The notes under the pieces: model-generated
The model's database searches: none
Told to the model about the DNA's origin: nothing
The model's input: the letters and a program-made list of their open reading frames with translations, nothing else
Shown: in pieces, positions 11,585-32,050 of the stretch
Layout of the letters: every line of letters starts with the position of its first letter
Position numbering within the stretch: position 1 is the first letter of the stretch
Program-made: the position numbers and the translations under genes
NCBI GenBank assembly: GCA_020350885.1
Contig: CP070727.1
Coordinates: 2,549,830-2,613,829, forward strand
Length of the DNA stretch: 64,000 bases
Reading direction: 5' to 3'
Source of the DNA: a bacterium
Lineage (GTDB): Bacteria > Krumholzibacteriota > Krumholzibacteriia > Krumholzibacteriales > Krumholzibacteriaceae

Positions 11585-11599
11585 CGGCTGGAGCCAGTG

Positions 11600-14500
11600 A
11601 TGCACACGTGGCTGCGTTTCACAAATCCTTTCAGCGGTTTCATACTTGCTCTCCTGCTGGTAGCCGTCAATGGGGGTACGTACGCCCAGCGCATTTCCCC
11701 CCGGCAGGTCCCAGATGAGGCGGACTCCACTACCTATCAAGTCTTTTCCGATCGACTGCGTTCAGCCGTCGAGGAGGGCGAGCGCGTCACCTATCTCGAG
11801 GGCGGTGTGCGGATCGAGCACCAGACGACAACGATCACGAGTGGAAGCGGCAAGCATTACCGCGAAAGGCAGTACGTCCGGCTCATCGACAATGTTCGAG
11901 TGCAGGACGGCACCCTGCTGATGCTGGGCGACATCGGTGAATATCACGGTCAGGTTGATGTACTGACGATGGAGGGTAACGTCAGGGGCTACGACAAGGG
12001 TTGGGAGATGTACTGCGACCGGGTGCGGTACGACCGGGAGCAAGCGATCGCCATATTGACGGGAAGGGTCCGTATCGCGGACAGCACCCGGGTGATATTC
12101 GCAGACAGCATTTACTACGATCGTGCCGAAGAGACCGCCGATGCATTTGGACGTGTCGTCCTGCTCGACCAGGTCGAGGATTATTCGATCGCCGGCAAGC
12201 ACGCCCGGTTCGACCGCTCGAAAGAGGAAGCGGTCGTTGACGAGCAACCGATACTGACCTTCGATCTCACGGCGGAGGAGAAAGGAACGGTAATCAGTCG
12301 CTGGATGCACTTCGACATCGATGATGAGATAGGTACGGCGGTCGGTGACGTTCGGATGGTGAAGGGCGAGACGAGGGCTTCGTGCGATTCGGCCGCGATC
12401 TACAACGAGGAGGGAAGGGTCGAGCTGTACGGTGGAGCGACCGCATCGAACGGTCCCTCGGGCATGACGGGTGAGAGCATGATCCTCTACTACAATGAGG
12501 ATGAGGTGGAGCGCGTTATTCTACCGGAATCGGGCAGATTGACCGAGTCGCCCCGTGAAGGTTCGCCGTGGCGCGAGGACTCATGGATCGATGGTGACTC
12601 GATCATAATCCATCTCACGGATGAGAAGGTCGACTCGGTGAGGATCATCGGTTCGTCCCGGGCAATGTACTATCCGATTGAAGGAGAGGAGGGAAAGGTA
12701 TCGAATAACTTCTCGACGGGGGATACGATGTTCTTCAGGTTCAAGGACCAGGATCTCAACTACGTACGGGTCTCCGGGAATTCGACCGGCATCTACAACT
12801 TTCTGAATCTGGCATCCAGCGAGACGATCGACAGTATTGCAGCGTCGATCGATTCGTCGGTTACCTACCGGGAGTTCAGAATGGAAGCCGAACGCATCCG
12901 GTACTCTGCACGGATGATCGAGTACTACGCGGACACAGAGGATATCGTTCTCAGCGGAAAGGCGGCGCTCCAGTACCAGGACAAGGGGCTCACGGCGGAT
13001 CACATCGATTTCAACTCGCGTATCAACGTGCTCGATGCCACAGGTGATCCGGTGCTCGAGGAGGCTAAACAGAAGATGTACGGACTCGACATGGGGTACG
13101 ATATGGATTACGAGTCGGGAATCGTACGTGACGGATCGACTAGGTATGATGCGGGATTCTACCGGGGGGGGCACATCTTCAAGGTCGGCAAGGATGTTCT
13201 CAAGGTCTACAACTCGAATTACAGCACGTGTGAGTATAAGCGCTCGCATTACTCCTTCCGTGCCAAGAAGATGAAAGTATACATCAACGACAAGATCGTC
13301 TCGGGTCCCATCGTTCTCTACATCGGCGAGATACCAATCTTCTATCTGCCGTTCATGGTGAACTCCCTTCGCAGAGAGCGGCACTCTGGATTCCTCAGGC
13401 CGAATTTCGATATCGGGATCGACAGCAGAGAGGGACGGTTCGTGCGGGGATTCGGTTACTATTGGGCAACAAACGACTACACCGATTTCATCATGACGAC
13501 CGATTTCAATGAACGGCGGAGCTTCCGGGTGCATCTCACGAACCGATACAAGATCAGGTATCTATTGGATGGAAACGTCAATTTGAATTTCTACCGTAAT
13601 CTCGTCAACTACACAAACGAGTGGACCGTGGCATCGCGGCACAACCAGAAGTTTTGGGGAAACGCGACCTTGAACAGCAATCTGAAATTCGTGAGCAGCG
13701 ACCGCGCGCAGATCGCAATGGACCAGGCCCAGGATGTGCAGAAGATCGTCGACCGGCGGATCTACTCGAGCGCAAGCTTCAGAAAGAGCTGGGGGGGAAC
13801 GAAGTTGAGTATATCGGCCAGCCGCAATCAGAAGCTGAACGTGACCTCCCCTACCCAGAGTAAGATCTCGGCCACGTTGCCCTCGCTTTCGCTGAACCTA
13901 CCGCGGACCTCACTCTGGTTCGGCGAAAAACACAAGGGCGCGGAGCGGGGATTCTGGGAACGGATGCTGGGAAGCATTCTCTTCTCCCCGAACCTGAAGT
14001 TCACACGCAAGACCGGTGAGAGTGACGCCCGAAAGACCGAAAACATCTCGGCACAATCGAGTGCCGGATTCAGCCAGCAGCACAAGCTGTTATTCATAAA
14101 CCTGTCGCCGTCGGTGAATATGGGATGGAACTACTTCAAGGTTCTTCGTGACGAAATCAATCCGGCATATGCAGATCAGGTCTCAGGCTTGATCAGGCCC
14201 GACGACCGGAACGAGTTCTCGTTGAGCCTATCGTCGGGTTTCGGTACCACACTCTACGGTATCTTCTATCCCAAGATCGGTTCGCTGCGCGGCATCCGCC
14301 ATACGATCAATCCAACCGTGAGCTACTCCTATTCGCCAAAGATCGGAGAGTCGCAGGTCGAGCGGAAGAGCGTCTCGTACTCGATCAGGAATGTCCTCGA
14401 CCTGAAGGTGATGCAGCGGGGGGAGGAGGTAAAAAAATCCAATGTAATTACCTGGAACGTCCGGGGTAGCTACAATCCGAAGCTTCCCGAGAAACAGCGG

Positions 14501-15085
14501 TTCTCGAGAATCAGCAGCAGCCTTCGCACTTCGCTCGGACTCCTCTCTTTCAGTCTCAACCACTCCATCGATCCGTACGAATGGGACATCCTCTCGACAC
14601 ACTTCAGCACAGGCTTGAATCTCAGCAGCACCTTCTCGTACCCGGGAAGCTGGATTGCGCCGAAACGCGAACGTATCACGGCCGCACAGGATGCCGAGGG
14701 AGCAGGGGCTTACGGAGATGGACTCGTGGCCGACCAGTACGGCGGGGGCGGTGCGCAATCATGGTCGTTGAATATGAGCTACAGCTATTCCCAGTCGGGA
14801 CAGGGCTTCTCACGGCGTGTCGACAGCCAGCTCAACCTGAGCGGCCAGCTCCAGGTCACGAAGGGGTGGCGTATCACATACAGCAGTCACTACGACGTCG
14901 ATTCCGGGAAATTCACCACACAGCAGTACAGCATCAAACGGGATCTGCATTGCTGGCAGGCGAGTTTCGTACACCGGAAATTCGGTAATGAATGGAGCTA
15001 CTACTTCCAGATCGCGATCAAAGCACATCCGGAGATCACGTATGAGCGGGGGCCGAGGGGGCTGCAGGGTCTGATGGGGTTCTGA
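11600..15085 (+). CDS. lptD: LptD/OstA-type outer-membrane LPS assembly protein
   Basis: A 1161-residue exported protein. A signal peptide with hydrophobic core at about residues 13-28 ends near 'TYAQ'. The N-terminal half (to about residue 520) is an OstA-type beta-jellyroll with repeated turns such as 'RVTYLEGGVRIEH' and 'VLTMEGNVRGYDKGWE'. From about residue 560 ('GPIVLYIGEIPIFYLPF', 'SGFLRPNFDIGI') it turns into alternating aromatic strands typical of the C-terminal barrel. In Gram-negatives LptD inserts lipopolysaccharide into the outer leaflet. It is larger than E. coli LptD (784), as is usual in FCB bacteria. GTG 11597 directly before ATG 11600 is an alternative start. Confidence 0.87.
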   Translation: MHTWLRFTNPFSGFILALLLVAVNGGTYAQRISPRQVPDEADSTTYQVFSDRLRSAVEEGERVTYLEGGVRIEHQTTTITSGSGKHYRERQYVRLIDNVRVQDGTLLMLGDIGEYHGQVDVLTMEGNVRGYDKGWEMYCDRVRYDREQAIAILTGRVRIADSTRVIFADSIYYDRAEETADAFGRVVLLDQVEDYSIAGKHARFDRSKEEAVVDEQPILTFDLTAEEKGTVISRWMHFDIDDEIGTAVGDVRMVKGETRASCDSAAIYNEEGRVELYGGATASNGPSGMTGESMILYYNEDEVERVILPESGRLTESPREGSPWREDSWIDGDSIIIHLTDEKVDSVRIIGSSRAMYYPIEGEEGKVSNNFSTGDTMFFRFKDQDLNYVRVSGNSTGIYNFLNLASSETIDSIAASIDSSVTYREFRMEAERIRYSARMIEYYADTEDIVLSGKAALQYQDKGLTADHIDFNSRINVLDATGDPVLEEAKQKMYGLDMGYDMDYESGIVRDGSTRYDAGFYRGGHIFKVGKDVLKVYNSNYSTCEYKRSHYSFRAKKMKVYINDKIVSGPIVLYIGEIPIFYLPFMVNSLRRERHSGFLRPNFDIGIDSREGRFVRGFGYYWATNDYTDFIMTTDFNERRSFRVHLTNRYKIRYLLDGNVNLNFYRNLVNYTNEWTVASRHNQKFWGNATLNSNLKFVSSDRAQIAMDQAQDVQKIVDRRIYSSASFRKSWGGTKLSISASRNQKLNVTSPTQSKISATLPSLSLNLPRTSLWFGEKHKGAERGFWERMLGSILFSPNLKFTRKTGESDARKTENISAQSSAGFSQQHKLLFINLSPSVNMGWNYFKVLRDEINPAYADQVSGLIRPDDRNEFSLSLSSGFGTTLYGIFYPKIGSLRGIRHTINPTVSYSYSPKIGESQVERKSVSYSIRNVLDLKVMQRGEEVKKSNVITWNVRGSYNPKLPEKQRFSRISSSLRTSLGLLSFSLNHSIDPYEWDILSTHFSTGLNLSSTFSYPGSWIAPKRERITAAQDAEGAGAYGDGLVADQYGGGGAQSWSLNMSYSYSQSGQGFSRRVDSQLNLSGQLQVTKGWRITYSSHYDVDSGKFTTQQYSIKRDLHCWQASFVHRKFGNEWSYYFQIAIKAHPEITYERGPRGLQGLMGF

Positions 15086-15236: not shown

Positions 15237-15530
15237 ATGAACAAGACCGAGCTGATCGAAAAAGTCGCCAAGAAAACGGGCATGACACTCAAGGATTCAC
15301 GTGCTGCTGTCGATGCAATCTTCAGCACTTCCCCCAAGGAGGGCATACTCGCCACGGAGCTAGCAGCGGGGAGGAAGGTGCAGATTACCGGATTCGGTAC
15401 GTTCCTGACGCGTCGTCGCAAAAAGCGCAAGGGACGCAACCCTCAGACTGGTGAGACGATTACTATTCCAGCAACCAGGTTCCCTGCATTCACATCGGGT
15501 AAGGCTCTGAAGAGCCGTATTGCCAAGTAA
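15237..15530 (+). CDS. HU/IHF-family nucleoid DNA-binding protein
   Basis: A 97-residue histone-like protein that bends and compacts DNA as a dimer. 'MNKTELIEKVAKKTG' is the canonical N-terminus, and the DNA-binding arm contains 'GFGTFLTRRRKKRKGRNPQTGE' split by the usual Gly and Pro. I took ATG 15237 over ATG 15234 because AAAGGAGG (15223-15230) is then 6 nt away. It is monocistronic, with its own promoter and a strong terminator. Confidence 0.95.
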   Translation: MNKTELIEKVAKKTGMTLKDSRAAVDAIFSTSPKEGILATELAAGRKVQITGFGTFLTRRRKKRKGRNPQTGETITIPATRFPAFTSGKALKSRIAK

Positions 15531-15627: not shown

Positions 15628-17007
15628 ATGAGAATGATTGCGGCGATCACGCTCTCGATTATCGTCGGTGCGTGCTGTGCAGGCTGTGGCGGCAAGAAGC
15701 CCGTTACGATCCTCTTCACCAGCGATGTCAGGGGCCGTATCCACCCTGCCGGTTGAGGAAAGAACGCCTTCGGCGGTCTGGCCCGGCGGGCCACGGCGGT
15801 AGAGAGAGCACGGGAAGAGAACCCCACACTTCTACTCCTTTCAGTCGGTGATTTCTACGGCCGGCCGCAAATCCTCGACAGGTATGTTGGCCGATTTATC
15901 GCCGAGAACATGGTCCGGATGGAGTATGCAGCTGTCGGGCTCGGCGAGCGAGAGCTCAATCACGGGCTCAAGGCGATCGATGAGTTGAACGAGACGGAGC
16001 TGCCCATGATCTGTGCGAATCTCTACCGGGATGAAAAGCGGCTCCTGCCCCCCTTGATTATCGAGCATGTGAACGGCTGGACGGTCGGCGTCTTCGCTGT
16101 CCTCGGCGAGGAACCCCGTGAGATCGGAGATTTCGAGCTACGGGATCCAGCCGATGAGGGTGAAAAGGTGGTGGCCAAGCTCCAGGATCTCGGGTGCGAC
16201 CTGATCGTCCTTCTGGCACACATGCGGCGGGACGAGCTTCTTTCGGCCCTGCCCTCCTTCAAAGGCGTACATCTCATTATTCGCGGACATGCGGGAACCG
16301 GGGAACAGATTACGGACAATTGCGCCGATACCCTGAGCGGAGGATTCGAGGACCTTCCTATCCCCGTGATCTTCGCCGGTGACAGGGGGCGGGTGATGGG
16401 GAAGGCGGTTCTGGCGGCAGGTGATGATGGCAGACCGGGCGTTGTTCACAGCGAGGTTATCGAACTCGATCAGTCGATTCCGGATGATCCCGAAGTTGCA
16501 GTCCTCATGAAGGAGTTCGGTCGGGAACAGGGTGTACGGGCCCGCGAGATACGGCTCCTCGAGTTCGTCTCCCGGGATGAGGTCACCGGCAAGATACGCG
16601 AGCGCTATCTGGGGCAGGAGAACTGCGGGAGATGTCATGGAGCACTTCTCGATGATTTCACCCTGAGCGGACATTTTCGTGCATTCGAGACCCTGAGTCT
16701 TCGCGGGGAAGACACGAATCCGGGTTGTGTTGCGTGCCACACGACGGGTTTCGGCCGGTTCAGCGGATACGATCCCAAGCTCGAAGAGAAAGGCGGCATC
16801 AACCTCCGGGGGGTACAGTGCGAGGCCTGTCACGGTCAGGGATCGCTGCACTCCAGGGACGGCTCCTATGTGAAATCCGCCAGGGAGTCGTGCCGAGCGT
16901 GCCATACACGGAAGTGGAGCCCCGATTTCGACTTCAATGTGTATTGGGAGCGGGCGGCTCACTGCGGTGAAGCCCACGGAAGGCCTCTCCAGAAGGGGCA
17001 CCAATAA
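15628..17007 (+). CDS. UshA-like metallophosphatase / multiheme cytochrome c fusion, probable selenoprotein
   Basis: The frame runs from ATG 15628 to the stop at 17005-17007 with one in-frame TGA (15754-15756, codon 43). Read as selenocysteine the protein has 459 residues. Signal sequence first ('VGACCAGC', lipoprotein-like), then a 5'-nucleotidase/UshA-type fold: 'LFTSDVRGRIHPAG', Sec, 'GKNAFGGLARRAT', 'LLSVGDFYG', 'VGLGERELNHG'. Homologues carry Cys at the TGA position ('PCGC'), and a Sec/Cys UshA-like family is known. From about residue 330 there is a c554-type multiheme region with four CxxCH sites (CGRCH, CVACH, CEACH, CRACH) and 'SPDFDFNVYW'. Probably a periplasmic or membrane-anchored redox protein. 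selD is in the same window. Confidence 0.82.
15754..15756 (+). other. In-frame TGA, probable selenocysteine codon
   Basis: Homology is continuous on both sides of the TGA ('RGRIHPAG' before, 'GKNAFGGLARRAT' after), with no shift of frame, and Cys occupies this place in relatives. A short hairpin CGCC-TTC-GGCG (15765-15775) starts 9 nt downstream, a position compatible with a bacterial SECIS, although it is small. Confidence 0.75.
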
Positions 17008-17115: not shown

Positions 17116-17877
17116 ATGAGGCGAATCATTGTCATTACCATCATTGTTGGTGTGGCGGCGGTCGCGCTCCACCCGGTAGCGGTCGCCGGCGTCGACTTCA
17201 TTGTGCCGGGAGTCACCCTCGAATCCGTAGACTTCAAGGCTGGTGCCGACGTTTCCTATCTTGTTATCGTGCACGCCTACGAGACCAGTGATACCTCCGT
17301 GGTGAGACTGTCCGTTCAGGATGTCTCGGATGATTTCTGCGTACTCGAGATCTCATCTGGACCCTTTCCATCGAACGAAGAGGAGACCGCCACGATCAGG
17401 TTCCGGCTCGCGATGCGTTTCAAGGAATATTCCACCCCCGATGAGATATTTGATTGCATCGATCAGATTCGCGTGAGGAACGGTACCGAGCCGTTTCGCA
17501 TCCCCACCCAGGACGAGATTGAGGAGTTCGATCTCAAGCAGATCCTGCTCAATACGAACGAAAGTCGGCAGCGCCGCACATTGCCGGTCCAGGAGGTTGA
17601 AACGCGCGCAGGCTCGTTCCCCTGCGACGTCGTTGAATATACGATGCGCGATGTGCGCGCGGTGAACCTGGGCGGAGTCGAGGCGGAACGTTTGAGGGAG
17701 GAGCGATCCGTGCTCTGGTTCTCGTCTCAGATTCCCTTCTGGGGGCTCGTGAAGAGCAGGGTCGAGATGAGACGTACGACAACAATCCTCTCGGCATCCG
17801 TCCCTACGGCTCCACAGGGGAAACAGACGGTTACCGAATCTGTGCTGCTCTCGTTTAAGGATCCGTTCGCACGGTAA
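17116..17877 (+). CDS. Exported protein of unknown function
   Basis: A 253-residue protein with a signal peptide ('MRRIIVITIIVGVAAVALH', cleavage near 'VAVAG'). I took ATG 17116 because the frame upstream to 17029 encodes low-complexity sequence ahead of an ordinary signal peptide. The mature part looks like a beta-rich domain ('VSYLVIVHAYETSDTSVVRL') with a Cys pair far apart. I do not recognise a family. It lies 108 nt after the cytochrome gene on the same strand and may share its transcript. A periplasmic role is all that can be said. Confidence 0.65.
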   Translation: MRRIIVITIIVGVAAVALHPVAVAGVDFIVPGVTLESVDFKAGADVSYLVIVHAYETSDTSVVRLSVQDVSDDFCVLEISSGPFPSNEEETATIRFRLAMRFKEYSTPDEIFDCIDQIRVRNGTEPFRIPTQDEIEEFDLKQILLNTNESRQRRTLPVQEVETRAGSFPCDVVEYTMRDVRAVNLGGVEAERLREERSVLWFSSQIPFWGLVKSRVEMRRTTTILSASVPTAPQGKQTVTESVLLSFKDPFAR

Positions 17878-18007: not shown

Positions 18008-20335
18008 ATGCGCCTAGCACGTATCGTTATTGTTACCCTGGTAGCGCTCGTAGTGGGGTGGGGTTCGGTATCGGCTAATCCGTTCCAGGACCGCGGCCTC
18101 CAACGAGCTACCTGTATTATAGATAATCATGAACTAGACACCTTTCATGAGGCACAGGAGATCCTTACACGGAGAGGGGCAAAAGCCCTTCAGATGTTTC
18201 CCCCGGAGGCAATATTCGGGTACTTCCCATCCGGCGTGGAAGCGACAGAGCTCGGAGATCTGCCGGTCACGGTCGTTCGCTCGGCCCTGGATCTCGCATC
18301 CGCCGACATCGATCCAATCGTCAGTCGGGTTCTCAGGAATCTCTTTCACGAGGAATTGTACTACCAAAGCGCGACGTACGGCGATCCGGGCCCGATTGAT
18401 GATCTTCTACTACGCGTACCCGAGGAAATCGTCGAGCAGACGAAGGTGCGGGGACCACGGAAGGGGTCCCCGTCGATGATACAGGAACGCGGCATCAATC
18501 AGAACAGTGAATTCCTGATCGGGAAAGTCGTGGTCAATGTCATCTTTCCCGAAAGTAATGGAGGGAGCGAGGACTGGACGGAAGACGAGTTGGCATCTGC
18601 CATGAGCGGCATATCATTGGGTATTTCGCAGTACATCCAGAAAGCCCATTGGGTCAACCTGAGCTTCACGTACGAGTATCGTAAGCAGGTGCCGGTCTCC
18701 TACGAGCCGATCGAGAGCGGAGATTTCAATGTCCATCAAGTGTGGATGGGTGAAGCCCTTTCCTACTTGGGCTATTCACACAATCCATTCTGGGGCGCAC
18801 ATACACTGAACAACGATATGCGCCGCAAGCACAATGCCGACTGGGCATTCACCGCCTTCGTCGTCGATATGAGTGCTCACTACTCACCGCAGATGCCGCC
18901 AGGCTCGCCCGATTGCTGGGGCGGTTCTGGGTACGTCGCCTATGCGTACCTCGGCGGCCCCCTGATGGTCGTTCCCTATCCGGCCTGCCGCTACGGCTAC
19001 GAGCTCGGCTTCGGTCGAGTCTTCATTCACGAGATGAGTCATATCTTCTGGGCGCTGGACGAGTACGCCTCCGCCATGCAGGGTTGCGATGCGTATTCGG
19101 GATACCTGAATATTCCGAATAGAAACACGCTCTACATGTCCTGTCAGGAGACGGTGCCATGTATCATGCAGAGCGGTACGATACCGGGCCCACCGCTTCC
19201 GATCTGCCAGTACACGATGGGACAGGTAGGACTGGCCGATGAAAATGAAAACGATCTGCCTGACATTTATGAGCTACCTCCCACGATCGATTTCATCGTG
19301 ATCCCGGGCCTCAATATGGATACGATATACGACGGCACATGGGTCGTCTCCGCCAGGGCCATAAATGATGCCGTCCCCAACAGAAATCCCGATCAGACCG
19401 GAGATCGCATAGATTACGCCGCATGGATAATCAGCGGGGAGTACTCCCTCAACGGGAGCCCGTGGACCGAATTGAAACCGTCCGACGGCAAGTGGGACAG
19501 CTCCTTCGAGAGCATCGGTTTCTTCATGCGAGGCTTTACACCGGGAATGTCGAGCGTCCTCTTCAGGATAGAGAACTGCATCGGTTTATCCGCCGAGATC
19601 GAACGAGACGTTTTCTACATCGGAATGCAGTACTTCTCGACGTGGACGGAGGATTGGTCAAGCGATCCGTTCTGGACCGAGGAGGAACCCCAATGGGTCG
19701 ATCTGCATTGGAAGACTGCGGCCGAGGTATTCGGTGCCACATTCGATATCTACCGTAGGGATCTCACATCGGGGAGCGAAGAGGAATACATGGGGATGGT
19801 GATCGAGCCAGAGGATATCGGAACCTTGAGCAGGCATTACAAGTTCCGTGACGAAACAGCGGCCGCCGGCCACATATACAATTACCAGATTATTGCAGAA
19901 TTCGATCTCACAATCGACGGTGAGGATAAGCACTTCCGGTTCCCCTCCAGGGTGATAGAGAAGAAGGCAACGATACCGGTTTACGGAGCACTCATTTCCC
20001 ACCTGGTGCCGAATCCCACTATCGGGACTACAACCTTTACGGTTGATGTTCCCGTTACAGAGGATCCTTCGAGTGGTACGCGTGCGTCCAAACAGCCGGG
20101 AGTACGGCGGGCACCGGGACTCATGGAGACAACGACAAATGTCCTGGTCACGGTGTTCAATGTGAAGGGTGAAAAGGTGAGAACCATTCACGATCTGCCG
20201 GTCTACAGTGGACTGTTGACGTTGTCATGGGAAGGTGTTAACGATAATCATCTTCCCGTTTCTCCCGGGGTCTACTTCATACATGTTCGCGCTGGGGGAT
20301 TGGAAGCTGTACGAAAGATTGTCATTGTTCAATAG
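18008..20335 (+). CDS. Secreted zinc metalloprotease-like protein with C-terminal sorting domain
   Basis: A 775-residue exported protein. Signal peptide 'MRLARIVIVTLVALVVGWG' with cleavage near 'VSAN'. At about residue 345 it carries 'FIHEMSHIFWALDEY', an HExxH zinc site followed by an L-D-E-Y turn as in M64-like gluzincins, which suggests a peptidase. The middle contains Ig/fibronectin-like beta segments. The last ~90 residues ('NPTIGTTTFTVDVP' to 'SPGVYFIHVRAGG' and 'VRKIVIVQ') form a FlgD-like module of the type used as a T9SS sorting tail. It may therefore be exported across the outer membrane and processed at its C-terminus. The substrate is unknown. Confidence 0.75.
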   Translation: MRLARIVIVTLVALVVGWGSVSANPFQDRGLQRATCIIDNHELDTFHEAQEILTRRGAKALQMFPPEAIFGYFPSGVEATELGDLPVTVVRSALDLASADIDPIVSRVLRNLFHEELYYQSATYGDPGPIDDLLLRVPEEIVEQTKVRGPRKGSPSMIQERGINQNSEFLIGKVVVNVIFPESNGGSEDWTEDELASAMSGISLGISQYIQKAHWVNLSFTYEYRKQVPVSYEPIESGDFNVHQVWMGEALSYLGYSHNPFWGAHTLNNDMRRKHNADWAFTAFVVDMSAHYSPQMPPGSPDCWGGSGYVAYAYLGGPLMVVPYPACRYGYELGFGRVFIHEMSHIFWALDEYASAMQGCDAYSGYLNIPNRNTLYMSCQETVPCIMQSGTIPGPPLPICQYTMGQVGLADENENDLPDIYELPPTIDFIVIPGLNMDTIYDGTWVVSARAINDAVPNRNPDQTGDRIDYAAWIISGEYSLNGSPWTELKPSDGKWDSSFESIGFFMRGFTPGMSSVLFRIENCIGLSAEIERDVFYIGMQYFSTWTEDWSSDPFWTEEEPQWVDLHWKTAAEVFGATFDIYRRDLTSGSEEEYMGMVIEPEDIGTLSRHYKFRDETAAAGHIYNYQIIAEFDLTIDGEDKHFRFPSRVIEKKATIPVYGALISHLVPNPTIGTTTFTVDVPVTEDPSSGTRASKQPGVRRAPGLMETTTNVLVTVFNVKGEKVRTIHDLPVYSGLLTLSWEGVNDNHLPVSPGVYFIHVRAGGLEAVRKIVIVQ

Positions 20336-20832: not shown

Positions 20833-20877
20833 CACACCATCATACAGTGCCTGATGAAGCGTAGCCGGGAGGTTCAT

Positions 20878-21324
20878 GTGGCTCAGCGGAGAGGGAAGGT
20901 GGCCAGCAAGCCGAATAAGCCGAGCAAGGCAATAGAGCAGTACTGCTCTGTTTGCAAGAAGAGCTTCGACATGCCTATCGTCGAAGAAGCTGAGACCAAC
21001 GACGTTATCTGGTTGAAGTGTCCCGGCTGTCAAGGGTATCTGCCCTTTATGACGGAAAAGGCCCATGACGGGCTGGTAGCCGAAGGTGAAACCAATCACG
21101 AAGAAGAGGGATTTCAGGATCTCGCACTCGAGGACATCGATATCGAAAAGGCGCGGGAGTATATTGAGTCGGATAGTTACAATGTCGGGGACATCATCTA
21201 CCACCGTTCGTGGAACGATTACGGCAAAGTGGTTGCCAAGGAAATCCTCCCGGGACATCGAAAGACGATACTCGTTCAATTCGTGAGCCAGGGTAAGATA
21301 CGGCTTCTCGAGGGAGTCGCATAA
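20878..21324 (+). CDS. Zinc-ribbon protein with C-terminal CarD/Tudor-like domain
   Basis: A 148-residue cytosolic protein. I chose GTG 20878 because GGGAGG lies 5 nt upstream; ATG 20854 adds eight residues but has no RBS. The N-terminus is basic, followed by a two-knuckle zinc ribbon ('YCSVCKKSF' and 'LKCPGCQGYLPF'). An acidic stretch leads to 'YNVGDIIYHRSWNDYGKVV' and 'ILVQFVSQGKIRLLEG', a small SH3/Tudor-like barrel resembling the UvrD C-terminus or the CarD RNA-polymerase-interacting domain. A transcription- or repair-linked role is plausible, not shown. Confidence 0.65.
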   Translation: MAQRRGKVASKPNKPSKAIEQYCSVCKKSFDMPIVEEAETNDVIWLKCPGCQGYLPFMTEKAHDGLVAEGETNHEEEGFQDLALEDIDIEKAREYIESDSYNVGDIIYHRSWNDYGKVVAKEILPGHRKTILVQFVSQGKIRLLEGVA

Positions 21325-30948: not shown

Positions 30949-31000
30949 TCGAGCTGTAGTTCCGTATTCAAACGGTGTAGCTGTGAGACTGGATAGGCAG

Positions 31001-32050
31001 ATGGCAAAGAAGAAGTATCGCTTGACGGCTATGGCTTCCTGTGCCGGTTGAGCATCGAAGCTCAGCCCAACGGAGTTGTGGCCCATCCTCAAACATCTAC
31101 CGGAGCAGGATCATCCCGATCTGCTGATAGGGTACAATCAGGCGGATGACAGTGGTGTCATGCGCCTTGACGATGATCGGGCGATCGTGTTCACGGTGGA
31201 TTTCTTTCCCGCCATCGTGGACGATCCGTATATTTTCGGCCAGGTAGCAGCGGCGAATGCCATGAGCGATGTCTACGCAATGGGTGGTCGCCCCCTCTCC
31301 GCGCTGAATATCGTCGGGTTCCCGGTCAAGGACCTGCCGATCGATCTCCTCGAGGATGTACTCAGGGGCGGTGCCGAGAAGGTGAACGAGGCGGGTGCGG
31401 TCGTTGTGGGGGGGCATACGATCAAGGATTCGGAGCTCAAGTACGGTCTCGCCGTGGTCGGACTCGTCGACCCCCGTCGTATTCTAAGGATCAATGGCGC
31501 CCGGCCGGGCGACCGGCTGGTTCTGACAAAACCGATCGGTACCGGTATATACTCCACGGCCTTGAAAAAGGAGGAGCTCTCGGGAGCGCAGGAGAAGCTC
31601 TTCTACGATGTGATGACAACACTCAACAGGGCGGCCAGCGAGGAGCTCGGCAACCACCAGGCGAGTGCCTGTACCGATGTCACCGGCTTCGGTCTCCTCG
31701 GGCACAGCCTCGAGATGGCGGAAGAATCGGATGTCACCGTTGCCATCGACGCTGCCTCCGTGCCGAAGCTCGACGGCGTTCTCGATCTCGCCGGTCGGGG
31801 ATTCCTCACCGGCGGTGGCATGGCAAACAGGGAATACGCCGCCGGGAAGCTGCGTTTCGAGAGCGATCCCTCCACTGAGCTCGAGATGCTCCTCTACGAT
31901 GCACAGACCTCCGGAGGACTGCTCGTTTCGCTCCCAGCCGGCAAGGCGGATTCCTACGTCACGAAGATTCATGCCGCGGGTGTGTCGGGCGCGGCGATAA
32001 TCGGTGAGGTTCATGAGCCGGCGGATGTTCGAATTATCGTGAATGTATGA
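31001..32050 (+). CDS. selD: Selenide, water dikinase, itself a probable selenoprotein
   Basis: Makes selenophosphate from selenide and ATP for selenocysteine and selenouridine. The frame from ATG 31001 contains TGA at codon 17 (31049-31051), exactly the position of catalytic Cys17 in E. coli SelD: 'RLTAMASCAG', Sec, 'ASKLSPTELWPIL'. Many SelD proteins have Sec here. Read through, it is 349 residues. Downstream: 'NQADDSGVM' (ATP site), 'FTVDFFPAIVDDPYIFGQVAAAN' in the usual two motifs, 'VVGGHTIKDSELKYGL' and 'TDVTGFGLLGHSLEM'. The RBS is weak. Conventional gene callers would start it falsely at 31076. Confidence 0.93.
31049..31051 (+). other. In-frame TGA, selenocysteine codon of selD
   Basis: Position-for-position equivalent to the catalytic Cys/Sec of SelD. 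A 5-bp stem AGCTC (31059-31063)/GAGTT (31073-31077) with a 9-nt loop begins 7 nt downstream and could be the SECIS hairpin, though it is modest. Confidence 0.85.

Follow-up and report, generated by a model that had tools for sequence, protein, structure and literature searches.

A probable selenoprotein with UshA-like and tetrahaem cytochrome domains, and its missing partner cysteine in one order of Krumholzibacteriota

UshA-like proteins with the motif CxU occur widely, and for almost two decades they have been counted among the selenoprotein families (PMC2398784, 2008; PMC9312934; PMC13188914). No function for them was found in the literature searched, and the examined passages of these three papers make no mention of haems for the UshA-like entry. 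A literature search for UshA, multihaem and selenocysteine, or cytochrome c554 and selenocysteine, in combination likewise returned nothing. The NCBIfam family NF041198 (UshA_like_PCGU) is defined by an UshA-like N-domain, the motif PCG[UC] and a C-terminal multihaem region, and its profile itself spans the haem domain (positions 381–519).

The protein considered here has the same layout, matching NF041198 in both the N-domain (profile positions 5–248) and the haem domain (394–518). Its score of 216 bits is below the curated cut-off of 275 bits; two relatives from the same order scored 178–193, and CxU and CxC members from the phylum 246–283. The motif is PAGU rather than PCG[UC], and its cysteine is missing order-wide. 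Membership in NF049981, UshA-like (seleno)protein family 2, was rejected, as the score was 41 bits with a curated cut-off of 140. The closest relatives are in records labelled Candidatus Krumholzibacteriota, where the family is present in 74 of 80 genomes; a contig scan with a single protein as the query gave no match, while the alignment as the query did. Fusions with four haem motifs were also found in records labelled Eisenbacteria, Nitrospirae, Deltaproteobacteria and Acidobacteria, and further in Planctomycetota, Armatimonadetes, Gammaproteobacteria and others. An earlier note on this DNA had considered the joining of a Sec-containing UshA-like domain to haem sites unprecedented. This claim is not upheld, as NF041198 covers the haem domain and such fusions are spread over many phyla. 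As part of our overall explanation, we consider it probable from the alignments that the protein represents a divergent order-level subfamily of the UshA-like (seleno)protein superfamily.

The reading frame and decoding of its internal TGA

The window, that is, the whole analysed stretch of 64,000 nucleotides, contains a frame of 460 codons that starts with ATG at 15628, preceded by a Shine-Dalgarno-like GAGG, and ends with TAA at 17005–17007. A single TGA, codon 43, interrupts it, in the context HPAGUGKNAFGGLARRA. The features are as follows.

15628..17007, + strand: whole gene, UshA-like domain (~residues 25–310) and tetrahaem c-type cytochrome domain (~325–445), read through one TGA
15628..15687, + strand: lipoprotein-type signal peptide predicted from the sequence, with a likely lipidated Cys20
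15748..15750, + strand: Ala41, at the position of the CxU/CxC cysteine of nearly all other lineages
15754..15756, + strand: TGA codon 43, predicted to be read as selenocysteine; motif P-A-G-U
15775..15797, + strand: SECIS-like stem-loop, core GGCCC-GGC-GGGCC, loop beginning 28 nt after the TGA
16012..16014, + strand: Cys129, fully conserved within the order and the CxU group sister to it, seldom present in other lineages
16321..16323, + strand: Cys232, present throughout the order (22/22) and in none of 83 others at this column
16624..16638, + strand: haem site 1, CGRCH, residue 333
16726..16740, + strand: haem site 2, CVACH, residue 367
16819..16833, + strand: haem site 3, CEACH, residue 398
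16891..16905, + strand: haem site 4, CRACH, residue 422
17116..17877, + strand: conserved downstream neighbour with no Pfam match and a weak structural resemblance to YmcC/LolA-like lipoproteins
30983..32050, + strand: selD, itself read through a TGA at 31049–31051 (SCAGUASK)

The earlier note had likewise counted four CxxCH sites. The column of Cys20 is occupied by Cys in 16 of 22 order members, and the leader in relatives ends with LLAGC or LFSGC.

The earlier note had also placed the TGA within unbroken homology and had looked to homologues with Cys or Sec at this column, a full set of Sec genes and a SECIS element for support. All of these were found, the last as a SECIS-like hairpin. The TGA column is kept both in the order, where all 24 members having the gene carry it, and in wider homologues: an alignment of 59 full or near-full proteins shows TGA in 56 and Cys in three. 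In the 58 genomes searched, nearly every close relative contains exactly one TGA at the matching place; where more stops were counted, the additional ones are those that end the gene. Homologues are 30–54% identical to the target, with homology on both sides of the TGA, and its retention at identities down to ~30% excludes an error, a pseudogene or chance. In one order member (L040, G012:C310) the gene seems to be divided between two frames, possibly by a frameshift or an assembly error; one homologue (L162) has lost both motif residues (PSGR) and keeps four haem sites.

The genome encodes tRNA-Sec with the anticodon UCA (72.5 bits), selA (481 bits) and selB (380 bits); in the phylum, selA is present in 78 of 80 genomes and tRNA-Sec in 68. 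The selD gene, which the earlier note had reported as nearby, lies at 31 kb in the window; its start by standard ORF calling, 31076, is too late.

One could still read the TGA as a true stop, a sequencing error or the mark of a pseudogene, with a short ORF downstream from 15910, which is the start that standard gene callers would pick. However, dozens of genomes that were assembled independently of one another have TGA at this codon, their proteins being only 30–54% identical and homologous on both sides of it, other homologues have Cys in this column, and the genome carries the Sec machinery; we regard this reading as highly improbable and reject a stand-alone ORF from 15910 together with the pseudogene and sequencing-error readings. 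Reassignment of TGA, for example to Trp, is more improbable still: TGA terminates nearby genes, among them the LptC/A/D-like ORF and selD, so the code is standard, and the codon 43 column contains U or C, never W. We therefore predict with high confidence that the product of 15628–17007 is a selenoprotein.

The hairpin just 3' of the TGA, GGCCC-GG[CA]-GGGCC, is centred on the A-R-R-A codons and can form in nearly all members. The distance from the TGA to its loop is within the usual range for bacterial SECIS elements. The mean hairpin energy is −13.9 kcal/mol in Sec genes as opposed to −7.3 in Cys homologues encoding similar residues, and the pooled mean z relative to synonymous codon shuffles is −1.38 (56 sequences), compared with −0.10 in 347 control windows from the same genes. 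Covariation was observed at two pairs: 27:39, present in 49 of the 52 distinct sequences (43 at most in 1000 shuffles), and 24:42, present in 37 of 52 (33 at most), the sequences being related and the counts therefore not independent. Tests on single sequences were often weak, with 18 of 56 falling below 0.05 and a value of 0.145 for the target, and it is as a pooled signal with covariation that the hairpin provides strong support for a SECIS-like element. An Rfam search of the window gave no match.

An UshA-like fold with altered catalytic residues and a tetrahaem domain

Pfam yields a cytochrome c554 match (PF13435, c554-like tetrahaem; 46.6 bits with a cut-off of 20.8) and a borderline Metallophos match. 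Besides the four CxxCH motifs, the haem domain has conserved extra histidines at 349, 408 and 445. The AlphaFold model has a 5'-nucleotidase domain fold with pLDDT of 87.8, falling to only ~57 in the Sec loop, and the nearest folds of the N-domain in Foldseek are 5'-nucleotidases (UshA/CD73) with E about 1e-20. The catalytic residues of UshA and CD73 are well established. In the alignment to solved 5'-nucleotidases, GNHEFD is replaced by GERELN and DxH by DxR, so that the GNHExD dyad and the DxH ligand of metallophosphatases are missing. The term metallophosphatase in the earlier note thus holds for the fold and not for the function: with the catalytic His and a metal His lost, hydrolase activity of the product is doubtful. 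In this order a possible ligand is retained at five of the seven metal-ligand positions; the seven differ from phylum to phylum, in contrast to Sec/Cys43, G49-G50, R53 and N131, which are near-invariant.

These observations bear on the possibility that the protein is a modified metallohydrolase in which Sec43 acts as a metal ligand or as an activator, with haems that are structural or serve another step. The nearest folds would agree with it, as would the retention of D33, D75, E107, H198 and H221 in 21–22 of 22 order members and the location of D33 ten residues before Sec. Still, neither the His-Asp dyad nor the DxH histidine has been kept, the ligand positions vary outside the order where Sec/Cys43 is constant, and the four haems are left unexplained; we consider this unlikely.

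A redox role near the metal site is plausible, and we think that the product is probably a periplasmic and lipid-anchored redox enzyme that depends on Sec and passes electrons to or from its own tetrahaem domain, its partner thiol having been moved or dispensed with. The catalytic nucleophile would be Sec43, located in the loop that follows strand 1 of what was once the metal site, and electrons would pass between this residue and the haems, as the co-occurrence of Sec and haems suggests. Thiol, sulfur or peroxide chemistry for the substrate are guesses.

The gene neighbourhood in other phyla (multihaem cytochromes, DUF1573, DsbA-like, MauE and DoxX proteins) points to a periplasmic redox setting. 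In Krumholzibacteriota, the selenoprotein gene directly follows an HU-type gene and an LptC/A/D-like gene; in the window, as in many genomes of the phylum, these are a single large LptC/LptA/LptD-like ORF (11597–15085) and then the HU gene (15237–15530). In this order, the conserved protein 17116–17877 and a FlgD-Ig-tailed protein (18008–20335) follow the selenoprotein gene. The conserved gene order gives no clue to the substrate. Further downstream, the 156-aa product of 20854–21324 has counterparts at 20 named loci and no Pfam or NCBIfam match.

The missing motif cysteine and Cys232

According to the earlier note, the TGA replaces the Cys of a PCGC motif. Sec indeed occupies the position of the second Cys; what was overlooked is that the first Cys is Ala here. 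In all 24 order members having the gene, the first Cys has given way to A, F, S, G or Y while Sec is kept, with motifs such as PAGU, AFGU, PSGU and PYGU, whereas 44 of 46 homologues in a second, wider set retain it. With the motif columns left out of the tree, the 22 full-length order members cluster as a single group (SH-aLRT 100) beside CxU sequences, so that C41 was lost once.

The same 22 proteins all have Cys232, which is found at that column in none of 83 others. It lies in a loop about nine residues longer than elsewhere, following the GH(221) metal-ligand position, and any Cys in this loop is seen in only three of the 83. C41 was exchanged for C232 in one evolutionary event, and the link between the two changes may be coincidental.

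The same genome encodes two haem-less paralogues. One (L077; C1:2490095–2490868, minus strand) is a second UshA-like selenoprotein with PCSU and an N-terminal hydrophobic helix, and all its orthologues in its family are CxU; the other (L078; C1:289414–290193, minus strand) has SCGC and is lipoprotein-like. Since the orthologues of these paralogues across the order retain CxU and CGC, the loss of the first Cys is specific to the haem-bearing protein.

In the CxU and CxC relatives, the adjacent Cys would resolve oxidised Sec, while in members of this order Cys232, or Cys129, or direct haem reduction could take its place. Sec might also act with no resolving thiol at all, its reduction coming straight from the haem domain or from a thiol partner outside the protein: C41 is missing in every order member, the tetrahaem domain is always retained, and DsbA-like, MauE and DoxX proteins are neighbours in other phyla. 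Yet the same clade has the new invariant Cys232 as well as the invariant Cys129, and CxU relatives with a like haem domain retain their Cys; we view the absence of any resolving thiol as possible but rather doubtful. Our own most specific proposal is also tentative: a Sec-dependent periplasmic oxidoreductase that would use a 5'-nucleotidase fold no longer catalytic as such and be connected electronically to the four haems of the same polypeptide. Its Sec-resolving thiol would have moved in one lineage from C41 to C232 in a distant loop, with haem-less CGU and CGC paralogues kept in the same genomes.

Comparison with known systems

Single genomes of the order hold a natural series of CGC, CGU and AGU, and the order also provides a clade in which the partner Cys is gone and Sec remains, so that the roles of Sec, the partner thiol and the haems can be tested by point replacement. 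Automatic annotation would truncate such proteins, as the first ATG ORF after the TGA, at 15910, begins 94 codons in.

Compared to UshA and CD73, the protein has the N-domain fold in common, but lacks the dyad of catalytic His and Asp as well as some metal ligands, and carries a tetrahaem domain in place of their nucleotide-binding C-domain. It resembles the cytochrome c554 family (PF13435; PDB 1bvb, 1ft5) in the four CxxCH motifs and three conserved extra histidines; unlike c554, which itself has no Sec, it has the haem domain fused to a predicted selenoprotein domain. The N-domain of NF049981 is related, with a CxxU motif according to PMC13188914. Like the COG0737/UshA-like selenoproteins of PMC2398784, PMC9312934 and PMC13188914, it would be a Sec-containing UshA-like protein, although their published motif is CxU and this order has AxU, FxU, SxU, GxU or YxU types. 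With NF041198 it shares both domains and a Sec in the second motif position, differing in PAGU for PCG[UC] and in the new Cys232 in a longer loop. Thus, the Sec-containing UshA-like family and its haem fusion were already known; what is unusual is the order-wide loss of the partner Cys with Sec retained, and the new Cys232.
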